Shown here in pieces: positions 41,053-64,000 of a DNA stretch of 64,000 nucleotides. The position numbers were made by a program, and so were the translations under genes. The DNA is from Ectocarpus siliculosus (lineage: Eukaryota; Sar; Phaeophyceae; Ectocarpales; Ectocarpaceae): contig FN649727.1 in NCBI GenBank assembly GCA_000310025.1, positions 3,490,064-3,554,063 of the forward strand. Direction: 5' to 3'. How positions within the stretch are numbered: the first letter of the stretch is position 1; every line of letters starts with the position of its first letter. The notes beneath the pieces were generated by a model. It did not search any database. It was not told the origin of the DNA and saw nothing but the letters and a program-made list of their open reading frames with translations.

Positions 41053-41904
41053 CCGTAAACTACGGAGTTTCCCCCCCCTTGTACAGATTTATTTCCCCCA
41101 ATATTATCTTTTCGGCCTGGAAGCAAGCAAGCATGGTTTCGTTGATTTAGTCCCGGGGTATGTAGATCGTTTTCGACCGAAAAAAAAAAAGATCCCCCTG
41201 GGTATTTCAATTTTCCCCCGGGGTACCAGTTTCCCACGAGTTCCCCCCGGGGGGGGTGTATTTCCCTTACTTTCTGGGTCGATTTTGTTGCATCGCAGAG
41301 CACAAAAAGCATGATACGGGACGGAAAAAATATTTGCAGATCTACGCGTCGAGCGAGATTTAGGTGTACCGTTTGTCACTTGGCCCTCGCCGTTTTTTTT
41401 GGGTGAAATGCTTTCGTTTTCTTGTTTATTTCTTGCATTATCATCCCTGGAGTCAGCTGAAACGTACCATAGCATGCTGACGAAACCTTGCGCACAAAGG
41501 GAAAAAAAATCGTATTCATTTTTTTTTGGATCTCACAACTCAAGGTAGAACCGAACCACAAAATTAATTTGTTCCTGCGGACAAACAAACTGCGAATTCT
41601 TGTGCATGAGCTTAGGCAAAGGTACCTCTTGCTCTCTTTTTTCTCTTCGCCTTCGTTGCTCTTACGTTGCTCCTCCCTCTGCTTGTTGAAACCTTGCTCG
41701 TAAACCTTATCCATCTCAGTTTTGTGTGTGTGTGGTGTGTGGACCGTCATTATTTTACACAACCCCCCGGGGGGGGGCTTCCCCCCGGGGTAGCGTTGGA
41801 AAGAAAAAAACTAACCCCCCGCGGTACGTCGATTTCCCCCCGGGGGGGTTGATTTTAGAAAAAAAAACGATCCCCTCCCCGGGGGAAAACTCCGTAGTGT
41901 ACGG
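41053..41904. mobile_element. MITE-like TIR element with C/G-run subterminal repeats
   Basis: The left end CCGTAAACTACGGAGTTT at 41053 is matched in inverted orientation at the right end by CCGTACACTACGGAGTTTT, ending at 41904. This is about 24 bp with one mismatch and one indel, and both ends continue into C-runs. TA flanks both ends, as for Tc1/mariner-type target duplications. Inside both ends there are repeated CCCCGGGG palindromes next to TTTCCCCC words. A 128-codon Lys/Glu-rich frame (minus 41376-41762) overlaps it but resembles no transposase I know. The element is probably non-autonomous. Confidence 0.7.
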
Positions 41905-41984: not shown

Positions 41985-42121
41985 CCCCCCCCTCCCCTGA
42001 ACATTGAAATACCCTGGCAACCACCGAGGCAGCGCCAAGAGGTCAAGGCGGACAAAGAGCAGTGCTGCGAAAAGCCTGGTGCTTCTCCATTGTTAGTACT
42101 TGTTCTACGATGAGCGCGGCA
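41985..42121 (+). promoter_or_regulatory. conserved 5' leader of NB-ARC gene 1
   Basis: The leader shares words with the sequence before the second NB-ARC gene (about 61825-61960): a C-rich run, CCCCTGAA, ATTGAA, AAGAGGT, and a similar context at the ATG. The duplication therefore included the leader. Conservation of the ATG at 42122 supports it over the in-frame ATG at 42110. Confidence 0.55.
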
Positions 42122-44247
42122 ATGGAGAATGTTACACCACGAGCCTCATCTTCCGACAACGGATCGGATTCTGACGGATTTGTCGTCGTTTCGGATCAGG
42201 AGGACTTCGTCAAGTTGAAATCGCCGCCGCGGCCTCGGACAGCGGCAGTCGCAGCCCCAGCAATAGCACCATCGGCGGGGCTGGATGAACCTGGTCTTAC
42301 CGTTGGCATTGGTAGTAATGGCGGTGGCGGTGCTGGTGCTGCGCCTCACCACAGGAATCACCAGCCTGCCACCGCTACTTCTCCTGGGGAGTTAGTGTCA
42401 TCGATCAACCGCAGTCCCGCAGTGGCCACCGCGACCACCACCACTGTGGCCACCGCCACCTCCGCCGCCGCCACCTCCGCCAATATCGTCAGCCCTTCTT
42501 CACCACTCCGCCCGAACCATCCATGCCGCCACCACCACAACCAGCAAAACAGCCCTCCATGGACGAGAGTAGCTGCAGTGCCCCCGGAGGCGCCCCGCCT
42601 CCCTTCGCACTACGTGGAGCGGTCGGCCCTGCTCGAGAATGTCGTCAACATGCTCATCGCCAAGAAACACTTCGACAACGGCCACGCCAGGGGCGTTACC
42701 ACCACCAACAGCGGCGACAACCAACTCGACAACAATTTCCCCATCAGGAACAACGGCAACAACGGGACACATGTCGAAAAAAGGTGCAAAACATTCTTCC
42801 CCAGGGGCACCAAGAACACCAGCGGCGACGGGAACGGTAACGAAAACAGCAACGACGATGACGGCCTCGAGGGTGCTGCCTACGCCCTGCTTGGTGACAG
42901 CGGGTCGGGGAAGACCGTCCTGGCGTCGGCCATCGTCTCTCACCCCGAGGTCCGGAGAAAATTCTGGCGAGGAATCTTCTGGGTGAACCTTGGGCGTGGG
43001 GGAGTGGTGACGAGAGCAAGGACGGGGACAGGAGGAGGTTTGCTGAGAGCTCTGCTGCACGATCTGGCTGCGCAGGTGGTCGCGTTAGACCACCCACTCC
43101 CAGCCAACGGTGAAGAAGCCGCCGCCGCAACCGCACTCCTTGCCCGGTCGGCAAGCGCTGGAGAAACCCTCAAGCAATTGGCCACCTCAAACGGGGGTTC
43201 ACATGTAGGGGAGCTCAGCCGACTTCTGGTCCTTGATAGCATTAGCGAGAGTTTCACCGACAACCCCAACGCCGTGGCCGAACTGGAAAGGGCTGGGTTT
43301 ACGGTGTTGGTGACCTGCTCGAGGCCGTGCGCGCTGTCGGTACTGCGGAGCAAGCAGCCGATGGCAAAGCCGGAGGTGGGGGTACCCGGCGGGCTGCCCA
43401 ACGACCTTGAGCACGGTCATCGCACATCGCCACACCGTAGAATCCATGTCAGTGTGCTGCATCCTGCGACGCCAAGCGAGGCGGTGGAGATGCTGCTGAA
43501 GAGGGTAAGGCGGCCGGGTGGGGCAACAATGGCGGTTGAGGCGACGTCGCCCGCAGGTTGGGCAGAGCTGAAGGCCGCTGAAGCTGGTGGCCCGGGTGCA
43601 AATGCATCAACCAGGGCGTCGTTCGAGTCGTGTGCTCTTCAGGTGATTTGACTGCTAGATGTGGCGGTTGGTGTGTGGCTCGGTTGACTGGGTATGCACG
43701 TTGATCGATCGGTTGACAAAATCAAGGAAGATAACTAAGTCGTTTGCTTTTACCCCCCTGCTTTGTGACATTCGCGGCGTGAACCGCTCCAACTTTTCCC
43801 GACAGGTCGTCAACCACTGCAGGGAGGTCGCACCGCTGGCTCTCGCTATCGTCGGTGCAGTAATAGCCGGCCAGGATGAGAGGGGTGGCCGCCGGGACAA
43901 CTCGCTGTCCTGCGACTACGCTGAACGCTGCCGTCAGATCGAGCGGCAAGTCACCCGGCATCAAGATTGTGGTGATGGTTATGATGCTTTCAACAGAGTG
44001 ATGGAGTTGGGGTTTGGCGCGCTCCCTGGGGACAAGACGAAGGACTGCTTCATTAGGCTGGGGGTGTTGGCGGAGGGAACGGTGGCTCCACTCGACATGC
44101 TGTCCAACCTTTGGGGGCAGGTGATTCACGGTAGTGATATGATGGTTCTGGTGGCGGAACGAATGGAGAGGAGGACGAAACCAGGCCACGGTTGAAGACC
44201 AGTTAATTCTCCTCCCTGTGTACTCTTGCTTGTCGTCGTCGATACAC

Positions 44248-48019: not shown

Positions 48020-48452
48020 AGCGACGTTCATCGCACAGCTGGTACCGTAGGAGGGTCCCCGTTCAAGGGCCCGCAACGACGCGAAAATTGGGTACAGCAG
48101 CATTCCATATGTGTCCTTTTCGTGTCGGTGGTTGGGAGAAAACAGAGCCGAACCCCGTTGTCTCTTGGTCTCCTCGACTAGTCTACTGCTGCTGTGGTGT
48201 TTCCTGTTCGTGCTCTACCAACTTCGTGACTGCCTCCCGCATGCATGCTGCTTGCCACCTCAGATGAAAGTGGGAACATATCGTCGCGTGTGTTGACTGA
48301 TGAATACCAAGCATTTGCTGCGCCACCATCATTGCTGCATTCTGCCGCCGGCGATGATGCTGAGAGATGCTGAGTTTTACTGCTGTTCTCCCCATGCTTT
48401 GCTGCCCTCTCTTGGAATGATTGATTCGTCTTTCAAACCCACGCACCCGAAG

Positions 48453-51400
48453 ATGCATGGGTTCACGCTTCGGGATGCGTTCGCTTGTCCAATCACCGGC
48501 GAGCTCATGCGAGATCCGGTGGTTGTGGAGGACGGTCACACTTATGACAGGGAGGCTATCGAAATGTGGCTGAGGAAGTACGGAACTTCTCCCAAGGTAT
48601 AGAGCAATCAATCTATCTACTTTTACGGCAGGTTCTAAACCTTTCGATTCAATAACTGGGTGCGAGAAACGGTATCACTCAATCCCTGATACGTCTTGAG
48701 TGCCACACCGTAGTCTTGTGCAGTTACCGGCAGGCCTTTGGCAGCGCAACTCGCATATTTTTCGGCAGGAGTGTGGAGACGTGGAGACTCTTGCTCAGTT
48801 TTTTAGTTGGTGGGTAGGTCTTTAATGTGAAAAAAAACTTCAACACGCAACTACATCCACGGCAATCTTTGTTGAATGAAATGTAGAGATTATTCTCTGA
48901 AGTCTCCTCGAGTTGGCAACCACGTGTAAGGGAAAGCACACCGTGGGGCGTTGAATGCCAACGTTAGGGGAGCGGTTCTCACGAAAGCTTGAAGCGGGTA
49001 TCCCGGAGCGTTTTCAACTGTGTGATGTTCACTAGCGTTTTTGGAGGGGGGGGGGAGTCTCAATTGACGACGGATGGTCAAAGGCCATTGTGGCAATTGT
49101 CCTCTTCACCAACCACAATTGATTATTCTCGTTTTGTCATTCTCTCGCTCTCTGGCTCTCTCTCTCTCTCTACCAGACCGGTGAGCCCATAGAGCGTCTG
49201 CTGCTAGTGCCCAACCTGAACCTGCGGCGCCTGATCAAGGACTTCCTGATCGAAGGTGGCGAGGAACTCTATGTGGGCGGACGGGACGGTGATGGTGGCG
49301 ACCAAGACGACGGGTCTGGGGAGGTTGATCGCGACGAAGGAGATGGAGGAGAAAGCGGGTGGGAGGAGAGATCGGGCACGGGGGAACATCGGGAGTGCCG
49401 CTTCGCGCTCGTGACCGAGCAGATACTCGTACTCAAGGTGTGTGTACCACGACGAGTACACCGACTGGTGATGAAGGATTCCACCTGCCGAAAAGAGGGG
49501 AGAACGTACGAGATGACGTTAATGAGTACGCTGTATTTGCGCAGAAATTGTTTTGGAATGCGTGCTATGTCCTCCGACGTTGGATGGGTCCGGCAGTAGT
49601 GCACGATCCCGCCCAGTCCAACGGCTTCGAACGAAAACACTGGGAGCAAGTAGCTACCATAGCAGGGCGGTAAAAGACAAGAGCTGGTGAGAGATCGTGC
49701 AACAGCTCCGTATTTCCCTGGCAACAACGCCCAAACTTGGTACATAATTTATGCATACGTGGTGCTGACATCCTTCAACCGCATTTGACAGTGCTTGGGA
49801 AGTGTCTATCCTGGCGGGAACATCGAGTCCTTCCGCGTCACGGAGCGTGGGTGTGTGGGCGGGCGCAACCAGCCGAATACGCTGGCGGGGGCGGAATTTG
49901 TGCAGATCTCAGACGCCACTGTGAGCAAGCGCCACTTCGGCATCGCCTTCGACAAGGAGGTGTGTAAACCAGCACATCTGCCGTGGCCTCAGCCAGTCCG
50001 ATCAACATGTAGAAAATGTATCCTAACTGTTGCAGTTTTCGTTTCTGCTACAATGTTGTTTGCTTCAAAAATCAAGACCTTTTGCCGTCGGCCAAAGTTG
50101 CTACCCACTCTTGACTCGCCCGTTGCTACACGATAATTTTTCTCTCCCCGATGTTGGCTGTCTGCCTTCTTGCGGTGCTAGCTCTGTACTCCGTAACCAG
50201 TTTTCGACCCTGTCGAGCGAACAATTTGTCCTCAAGTCTCTCTCCCCCCCGGCTCTCACAAACCATCGCTTTTCACTGCGCGTGCGCTAGATGGGACACT
50301 ATCAACGAAATATCTCGACGCGTTTGGTCTCCTTTTGACAACGGATGTTCGTTGCTCTATCGTAGGATCAGGGCAGGTGTTGTAGAGGAACGCATTAAGC
50401 ATGTTTTTGTATTTGCTGGCAGCAATATCAACGACGACACCTTGGAGCTCAAACCCGTGCGCAGACCATCATGAGTGTCATGATTTCGTCGGACAGATCG
50501 GGGTAACCAGTGTGCTTCGTCGAAGCTTTAGAACCATGTTCGCAAGTCCAGTGCATTTTCAGGGACCCCTCGGGAGGTGGCAACGGTTCTAGCTCGACAT
50601 TGCGTAGAGTTCAGCGTTGTGCCGAGTCTCAACTCGCCTGCTATATATCCCCCGGCCTTTTGCCTCGACGTAGCTGTTACGCCGCCCGCCGCTTCGCCGC
50701 TATCCAGGACAAGCTATTCTCGTTGCGTGACCTTGGAAGTGCCGGTGGGACGTTCGTTCGCCTGGAGTTAGGGGTGTCCACTCTGCTTTATCCCGGCATG
50801 ATCATACTGCTGGGAAGGCACCAGGTACGTCACCAGCACAGCGCCAGACCGTATCACCCAGCTTGGAACTCTCCTCGTTTGCTGAGGTCGCCTATGTTCC
50901 CCCCCACTGTTTGTTGTTACGTTGTTAGATTTGCGCGTGCTGCACGACGTAGTCATGAGGTAGGAGAAGAAAACGTACCCTTGCGCTGCGGGTGGGAGCG
51001 CGCCACTTTGGTCCTTACAAGTCCCTTGCAAAGTGCCACGTTTGTTCGGCGACAACAACCTCGCCTCCCCCATCTTGTCTTGCCCCGCCCCCCCCCGACC
51101 TTCTTATTCCCAACACCCACCACCCGAATCCTATCGAACACCAGCTGGAGGTGATAGACGTGTCCTCTACCGATTCTGAAGCAAAGGCGGTCGAAGGTGA
51201 TCGTAATCCCTTCGCTGTGGGGGACAAAGGCAGCAACGCCACGTCGCCTTCCAGCCCGTCAGCGCCCGGGAATAGTTCGTCGACGGCAGCCCGCCGCAGA
51301 GGCATGGCCTGCAGTATTGTTGGGAGCGCCGCGATTGTCAATAAAGGGCCCACGACGGACGGCGGGGAGCGAGAACCCAGGCACCCGATCAGCCCACAGC

Positions 51401-61960: not shown

Positions 61961-64000
61961 ATGGATAATGTTGGATCACCAGCGGCCTCATCTTGCGACA
62001 GCGGATCGGATTCAGACGGATTTGTCCACGTTTCGAGCGGGGAGGACTTCGTCATGGTGCAGTCGTCAAAGAGGTCTCGGGCGGAGGCAGGCGCAGCCCC
62101 AGCAGCAGCATCATCGGTGGGGGTAGATGCCGCAGGTCCCGCTGGTCCCGCAGGTCCCGCAGGTCCCGCGGGTCCCGCAGGTCCCACCGTTGGCACCGGT
62201 GGCGGTGTTGGTACGGCTTCGCACAACAGCGACCAGCAGCCTGCTACTTCTATTAGCCGTCCTACGGCTTTCGCTAGGAAATTGGCGTCATCCATCGACC
62301 GCAGTCACGCAGCCGCCACCGAGGCCGCCACCACCGCGGCCAAAGCGGCCACCGCCAACATCACCGGCCCGTCTTCACCACCCGGCCCTTATTACCCACG
62401 CCTCCACCAGCTCCAGCAAAAACGTCCTCCACGAACGAAGGTAGCCGCGGTGTCCCCGGAGGCGCCCCGCCTCCCTTCGCACTACGTGGAGCGGTGGGCC
62501 CTGCTCGAGAAGGTCGTCAACGAGCTCATCGGCAAGAAGCATCTCGACAACCGTCACGCCAGGAACAGCAGCACCACCAAAAGCGGCGACAACCAACTTC
62601 ACAATAATTCCACAATCGACAACAACGGGTAAGGGCATGCACGAACAACAAAAGACACATTAGGCTCACCAAATCGAAGCTCTGGATCCGCGGGACGTGT
62701 GTGTGTGTGTGATTCTTTTGGGGGGGGCGGTCGTATCCAGAGACCCTTGGGATACATGCCGTGCTTCTCTCTGTGAATGGCATCTGGGCCTAGAGACCGC
62801 CAGGAGGTGGCGGGCACCCGCACCGCCCAGGTTCGTCTTAGGAAAGCTTCTCATACATGCCTCGATGCACCAACCTCCTCTGGGAGCCCCTATTTAGCAC
62901 GCCTGCCACCCGTTTGGCCCAGTGGCCAGAGAACAATGGGTCACTTGAGCTACCGTGCGTTGAAGATTGAGTAGTCTTCATGGTAAACAAACTACCAATA
63001 CATGGAGACAAAAGAAGGACCAGGTACGAAAAAAGAAATTGTTTCAGCAAACTTTCGGCGTGGAAGGATTTTCCGGGATCGAAAGCGACAATGAGAAACA
63101 GGCGCTTCATCGTGCCTGCGTGTGTGTCTCCACACAGGCTCTTCGTTGGGTAGCGAGGTGAAAGAACTGCAGTACTGCCGCGTGAAATAACGGAGACGAA
63201 AGTCCGAAGGTCGCAAACACTCACCGAATGGTTCGTAATCTGTCGATGTTTCATGGTATTTTCGAATCTAACCCCCTACTGAGCGGCGGAAGGTTATGTG
63301 CCCGAAAATTATTTTTCGCATACCCTTGGAAACATCTCGCAAAACATTGCACAACGTTCTTCGCCAGGGGTAACACGAACACCAGCGGCGACGAGCATGT
63401 TATCGGAAACAACAACAACGGCGACGGTCGCGAGAGTGCTGCCTACGCCCTGCTCGGTGACAGCGGGTCGGGGAAGACCGTTCTGGCGTCGGCCATCGTC
63501 TCTCACCCCGAGGTCCGCAGAAAATTCTGGCGAGGAATCTTCTGGGTCAGCCTTGGACGTGCGGGTGTGACGAGAGCAACGGCAGGCACAGGAGGAGATC
63601 TGCTGAGAGCTGTGTTTCACGCTCTGGCTGCGCAGGTGGTTGCGATAGCCCATCCGCTCCCAGCCAACAGTGACGAAGCCGCCGCCGCAACCGCACTCCT
63701 TGCCCGGCCAGCAAGCCCTGGGGAAACCCTCAAGCAGCTGGCCTCCTCGAATGGGGGTTCACGGCTGGGGGGGCAGAGCCGACTCCTCGTTCTTGACGGC
63801 ATCAGCGAGAGCTTCACCGACAACGTCAACGCCGTGGCCGAGCTGCAAAGGGCCGGGTTTGTGGTGCTGGTGACCGGCGAAAAGCCGTGCGCGCTGTCGC
63901 TCCTGCAGAGCAAGCGGACATCGTCGCCAGCAAAGCCGGAGGCTGGCTGGGACCTAGGGAACGGTCGTTCCACACCGCAGCACTGCCGATTCCACGTCAG
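61961..64000 (+). CDS. second NB-ARC gene, paralogue of 42122, cut by the window end
   Basis: Proposed exons are 61961-62628 and 63293 to beyond 64000. The N-terminus matches gene 1 closely (G-S-D-S-D-G-F-V, A-P-R-L-P-S-H-Y-V-E-R), as do the P-loop G-D-S-G-S-G-K-T at 63456-63479, F-W-R-G-I-F-W-V and the Walker B L-L-V-L-D. Gene 1 has no intron in this part. Here the frame meets TAA right after the point where homology stops; splicing GG/GTAAGG to GGAAG/GTTATG restores the frame into the P-loop with 12 extra codons. Without splicing the gene would be truncated before its ATPase. Its N-terminal region also has a five-fold Gly-Pro-Ala repeat absent from gene 1. It is probably the same type of switch ATPase; TPR exons would lie beyond the window. 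Confidence 0.8.
62131..62190 (+). repeat. 9-bp coding minisatellite (Gly-Pro-Ala repeats)
   Basis: About six copies of GGTCCCGCA with small changes encode a collagen-like G-P-A run in the disordered N-terminus of NB-ARC gene 2. Gene 1 lacks it, so it expanded after the duplication. Confidence 0.85.
62630..63329. mobile_element. MITE-like insertion in NB-ARC gene 2
   Basis: Alignment with gene 1 by eye breaks after AACAACGGG (62629) and resumes at AAACATCTCG (63330), where gene 1 is continuous. The inserted 700 bp have near-terminal inverted words AAGGGCATGC (62631-62640) and GCATACCCTT (63318-63327), nine of ten matching. No long ORF or transposase is present. A target duplication is not clear. 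Its 5' edge forms a GTAAGG splice donor with the host G. Confidence 0.65.

Follow-up and report, generated by a model that had tools for sequence, protein, structure and literature searches.

How does a gene fare when a transposon lands in the middle of a coding exon, and can the transposon become an intron? The question is raised by b62, one of two immune-receptor-like NB-ARC paralogues that lie 20 kb apart in Ectocarpus siliculosus. The DNA analysed, here called the window, is a 64,000-nt stretch of the forward strand (GCA_000310025.1, contig FN649727.1, 3,490,064-3,554,063), and relatives were sought in the genome as a whole (189 Mb, 492 contigs). A sequence-only reading of the window had proposed that b62, relative to its paralogue a42, carries a MITE-like insertion of about 700 bp in mid-exon that can be spliced out. 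The exon parts of the two genes are:

42110..43642, plus strand: a42 exon 1, uninterrupted, with the empty site near 42765
61961..62628, plus strand: b62 exon 1, 5' coding part up to the putative donor; 222 full codons, open, by translation and codon alignment with a42
63330..64000, plus strand: b62 exon 1, 3' part with the P-loop (LLGDSGSGKT), open; Pfam NB-ARC, 24.2 bits

The start of the paralogue, earlier given as 42122, is better placed at 42110, where the a42 open frame has its ATG. Exon 1 of b62 runs beyond the window to 64190, where its end matches the exon end of a42. Positions 63330-63998 of b62 match PF00931, the NB-ARC/STAND P-loop domain, just above the cut-off of 23.5 bits, and the a42 exon scores 20.3 bits, under it; the translation of 61961..62628 gave zero matches in a Pfam search at E 0.1. 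A genome-wide protein search returned at least 17 match rows, 3 of which are a42 and b62 themselves. The remaining rows, at least 14, are distant (31-56% identity) and start at or near the P-loop, and among the matches listed there was no third close paralogue with which to polarise selection. An open frame that encodes a U-box domain (48297-48599; PF04564, 45 bits) follows the a42 exons and is either the end of the a42 gene or a neighbouring gene. Directly upstream of the a42 gene, C-run and G-run stretches of the CCCCCCGGGGGGG type are clustered (41766-41885).

That b62 is interrupted in mid-exon was borne out by two comparisons with a42. By blastn, the genes are 71% identical before the insert and 84% identical after it, with about 700 b62 bases unmatched between, and a comparison in codon register gave exactly 700 extra bases in b62 exon 1. 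The empty site reads AACAACGGG/ACACATG in a42 and AACAACGGG...(G)AAACATC in b62. Judged from this alignment, a42 shows a clean empty site, and the element was most likely inserted after the duplication of the NB-ARC genes. The right-hand limit needs correction: the insert does not end at 63292, as had been proposed, but runs to 63328/63329. The element and its ends are:

62630..63328, plus strand: MITE-like element of 699 bp, the extra DNA being 700 bp if an ambiguous G is counted, from the empty site in a42, an end-to-end alignment with locus L002 and a dispersed family
62630..62643, plus strand: left terminal inverted repeat, TAAGGGCATGCACG, which in the family reads CAAGGGTRTGCRCG
63317..63328, minus strand: right terminal inverted repeat, CAAGGGTATGCG in minus-strand reading, from its sequence, common to other copies

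The insert belongs to a family. The insert, used as a query, brought up two partial relatives; for one of them, L002, the match covers the right 230 bp at 68% and ends at GCATACCCTTGG, at most 2 bases from the boundary defined by the paralogue. Both ends are present in the L002 element, and its alignment spans the whole insert (815 versus 700 bp). Searches with L002 gave 20 matches, L002 and the window counted, and searches with L048 gave 32, L048 counted and the window not. Moreover, a 21-base family core with up to 3 mismatches occurs at 24 places in the genome, the window included, versus 0 for the reversed control. The inverted ends of about 10 bp noted earlier are real, as 9 of 11 positions agree between TAAGGGCATGC at 62630 and, in complement, CAAGGGTATGC, which ends at 63328; within the window, AAGGGYATGCR occurs without mismatch only at the two element ends. 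The 699-bp element contains no frame as long as 200 aa, a weak test at such length, and the frame 63186-63998 continues from the element into the host exon. RNA folding of the insert was nothing unusual (z -1.06). By its family and ends, the insert is classed as a diverged, non-autonomous, MITE-like terminal-inverted-repeat element, in keeping with the sequence-only reading, and the alignments confirm a transposon insertion in a coding exon of b62.

The family is informative about the first base of the element. The terminus CAAGGGTRTGCRCG is common to element copies, and the left end begins with C in 8 of 9 other copies, with A in the ninth (L025) and with T in none, loci that were fetched twice by different searches being counted once. 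A terminus pattern that admitted A, C and T equally at the first base gave, among the 39 matches listed with 0-1 mismatch, 31 that begin with C, 7 with A and 1 with T; the window copy, at 2 mismatches, is outside the 39. At up to 2 mismatches the pattern has 273 genome matches versus 134 in the control, about half of these matches are chance, and those listed include several that begin with T. Because the family begins with C, the T of the b62 copy probably arose by a C-to-T change at the element's first base after insertion, and we infer that this change created the donor described below.

Which superfamily the element belongs to was approached through its target site. Among 11 copies with both ends, a 7-bp target duplication matches at 7/7 positions in L094, 6/7 in L090 and 5/7 in L096, and at 1-4/7 in the other 8. 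The b62 copy has no clear target-site duplication (2/7). Over the 11 copies, 36 of 77 positions match, versus 21.9 in shuffles (p 0.0018, uncorrected, with nine settings tried). An 8-bp duplication gave p 0.0029 if shifted by one base and p 0.35 in register. Copies with one end were left out of the test, in L021, L010 and L089 the right end is uncertain, and L095 was removed as a duplicate of L090. L090 and L095, on different contigs, agree in flanks and target duplication and look like a segmental duplicate or an alternative haplotype, not two insertions. Elements of the hAT superfamily make 8-bp target duplications and have YARNG ends. The element ends CAAGG are compatible with YARNG, a target duplication of 7-8 bp has marginal support, and a hAT-like identity fits these ends as a candidate superfamily. 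Domains of the hAT dimerisation type occur at 20 places in the genome, and neither of the 2 of 20 transposase loci checked as an autonomous partner is bordered by the element's ends. A TIR-like match in each of those two loci was rejected, being internal to sequence common to both.

Whether the insert can leave the transcript depends on splice sites, whose strength was judged by eye against the consensus. The candidates, all on the plus strand, are:

62629..62634: putative 5' splice site GTAAGG, in which a host G precedes the first bases of the element (GG/GTAAGG)
63268..63272: CTAAC, branch-point-like, its last A 21 nt upstream of the G at 63292
63282..63283: alternative acceptor CTACTGAG, in frame, 45 bp from the element's right end
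63291..63292: putative acceptor GGCGGAAG/GTTATG, in frame, weak, purine-rich (AAG), 36 bp from the element's right end
63366..63367: alternative acceptor TTCTTCGCCAG, in frame, in the host exon about 39 bp past the element, where a42 has TTCTTCCCCAG

The donor GG/GTAAGG is present at the insertion edge, at 62629, just as had been claimed, and CTAAC matches a branch-point consensus. The proposed acceptor at 63292 exists and is in frame, and we agree that its AAG is purine-rich and weak. Its restoration of the frame carries little weight, however, because many AGs of this region would do so: of the 12 in the interval 63180-63480, 7 match the donor's frame. The pyrimidine fraction is highest, and equal (0.65), at the AGs at 63283, 63367 and 63463, and use of 63463 would cut into the P-loop. 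By eye, 63367 (CAG) would be the best acceptor upstream of the P-loop, and its TTCTTCGCCAG resembles the CAG ends predicted for b62 introns 1 and 2. A clean acceptor-like CCCCCCCCACAG is found in L002 (minus strand, 1549-1560), roughly where the window copy has 63283. Depending on the acceptor, the predicted intron would measure 655-739 bp, an ordinary length in Ectocarpus given the median autosomal intron of 524 bp in the main text of PMC12477816.

Apart from the insert, b62 is open through its first three exons. Both parts of exon 1 are open, as are exons 2 and 3, which were placed by alignment and are open in a42 as well. Constraint on the pair is uneven. Before the insert, dN/dS between a42 and b62 is 0.73-0.90, which indicates little constraint; in the P-loop part of exon 1 it is about 0.45 (dN 0.145, dS 0.326) and in exon 2 about 0.36 (dN 0.071, dS 0.195). 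The argument from exon 2 is weakened because intron 1 exceeds the neighbouring exon in identity. Indeed, intron 1 (43643-43805 in a42, downstream of 64190 in b62) is about 94% identical between the genes, versus about 83% for the preceding exon, and identity per 100 bp is 86-98% over 43680-44180, which includes most of intron 1, versus 63-97% elsewhere; this suggests a patch of gene conversion over the intron 1 region. Such constraint as there is between a42 and b62 may largely predate the insertion. Over about 1.8 kb of b62 coding sequence, 0 stops were seen versus about 7.6 expected if the gene had been neutral since duplication (0.16 substitutions/site), and a gene drifting neutrally over up to about 0.063 substitutions/site would still be stop-free 5% of the time. 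From these figures, b62 has probably been under constraint for much of its life, and the insertion could be recent.

What became of b62 is best explained as follows. A non-autonomous TIR transposon of 699 bp, from a diverged family, landed in exon 1 of b62 after a G, and after a probable C-to-T change at its first base the first bases of the TIR read G/GTAAGG, a strong 5' splice site. Splicing from that donor to an acceptor in frame, whether in the element (63283 or 63292) or in the host exon (63367), would take out most of the element and leave the P-loop in frame, with no change beyond a low-complexity linker. As the host frames are open on both sides, it is plausible that the insert could be spliced as a new intron, and the chances that the b62 transcript is in fact spliced across it seem to us evenly balanced. 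It is quite possible, though less likely, that the insertion instead broke the gene. The upstream frame without splicing meets a TAA at 62630-62632, right at the junction, the acceptor inside the element is weak and the uninterrupted a42 exists; the downstream exons would then be a young, intact-looking pseudogene, and the absence of stops permits a neutral period of up to about 0.06 substitutions/site. A gene that had been neutral ever since duplication, however, would be expected to contain the stops that b62 lacks, and the averaged dN/dS of the P-loop part also argues against a broken b62.

A different fate, which we consider unlikely, is that the element supplies a new start and b62 yields a shortened NB-ARC protein without its upstream part. 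Such a protein could begin within the element:

63228..63230, plus strand: ATG within the element, in frame and followed by an open frame across the P-loop; a second ATG is at 63246

The far-side frame stays open between 63186 and the exon end that b62 shares with a42, across the P-loop, and holds both of these ATGs, but its part inside the element is short enough to be open by chance. Finally, the extra DNA might be an old intron that was precisely lost from a42. Only two close family members were found genome-wide, so polarity rests on structure, and structure makes a loss hardly credible. The extra DNA stops at the termini of the element family, and RNA-mediated loss would have left 36 bp of element (with 63292) or deleted host bases to 63367; a42 shows neither. 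Insertion is preferred over intron loss for these two reasons.

The sequence-only reading had also likened the insert to introners, in which case it would have relatives that sit in exons with matching splice sites. A TIR element that is dispersed in the genome, lies in a coding exon and has a donor at one edge is in line with such membership, and the genome-wide search did find dispersed copies, but it found no matching donors among the left ends read and, among five copies, no clear exonic setting. The first bases reported above argue against membership: C, not T, in all but L025 of the other left ends, and a single T-first match among the 39. Moreover, GTAAGGGYATGCRCG with at most 1 mismatch has 50 genome matches versus 36 in the control, which is near chance. 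The only other exact GTAAGGGCATGCACG, at L084, shows no element around it: the 851 bp fetched contain neither a right end nor the core, and outside the seed 47 of 200 shuffles matched as well as the real sequence. Eight loci with ends of the GCAAGGG, GTAAGGG and ATAAGGG types were considered as close relatives and rejected, there being no convincing homology past the seed; the best were a 44-column minus-strand match at L087 (E 0.012) and a 50-column left-end match at L084 (E 0.097), both E values being from a tiny database.

The flanks of other copies likewise carried no clear exon signal. Ten copies entered a test of the reading frame across the joined flanks, four with the left end alone. 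For the five others with both ends, joined-flank frames and control medians from other points of the same flanks were, in codons, 154 versus 400 (L002), 176 versus 136 (L048), 69 versus 173 (L021), 76 versus 83 (L036) and 65 versus 192 (L025). Only L048 is above its control median, and its 176 equals its control maximum, but with 7 codons on one side. Exonic insertion of other copies thus had no clear sign among these five, which are a minority of the family. With no common donor in the left ends read, an introner-like family is not supported; as far as examined, the donor appears private to the b62 copy, and we regard membership in an introner family as very improbable. We speculate, with little confidence, that the family termini (CAAGG...) could instead act as a latent GC-type donor, tolerated in exons and prone to become introns, in which case b62 would be an intermediate of intron birth. 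A copy landing after GG gives GGCAAG, and one C-to-T change turns that into a GT donor as in b62. In the a42 exon, GGCAAG would arise at 147 of 1523 positions with 6 of the 12 ends tested, at 42 with one and nowhere with five.

Among the matches listed, in main texts only, we found no literature on the b62 locus or on introners in brown algae. The NB-ARC family of b62 and a42 is named in PMC11378527; like that family, both have a P-loop NB-ARC exon, and unlike it, they gave no TPR domain match in the two downstream frames tested. In the main text of PMC12477816, Ectocarpus has abundant short DNA elements, many of them intronic, with a "DNA/Unknown" table row of 51, which we read as families. 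The insert is a short DNA element like these non-autonomous DNA transposons, and that main text has no name match for its family and neither "introner" nor "MITE".

If b62 is not spliced, a transposon would simply have knocked out one of two duplicate receptor-like genes, an ordinary event. If it is spliced, the locus would show cleanly how a DNA transposon gives rise to an intron, in what appears to be an intron-rich lineage of algae and with the empty site available for comparison in a paralogue 20 kb off. It would then be one new case of a phenomenon known from maize Ds1 and introners, not a new kind of system. Introner families (Micromonas, Aureococcus and others) comprise many introns, some with splice sites partly derived from the target, by the main text of PMC9860276, which has no mention of Ectocarpus, Phaeophy, brown alga or stramenopile. 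Like introners, the b62 insert is a TIR element in a coding exon, a potential intron with a splice site that is partly a host base; unlike them, its donor is absent from the other copies examined and the copies are diverged. Maize Ds1, a hAT element, has termini that give donor and acceptor sites at most 35 bp from its ends, also when exonic (PMC5432752). The b62 insert differs from Ds1 in its host and terminal sequence, and hAT is here a candidate superfamily only. Like Ds1, however, it is a short non-autonomous TIR element with putative splice sites at or near its ends, and exonic Ds1 would be its closest functional parallel.
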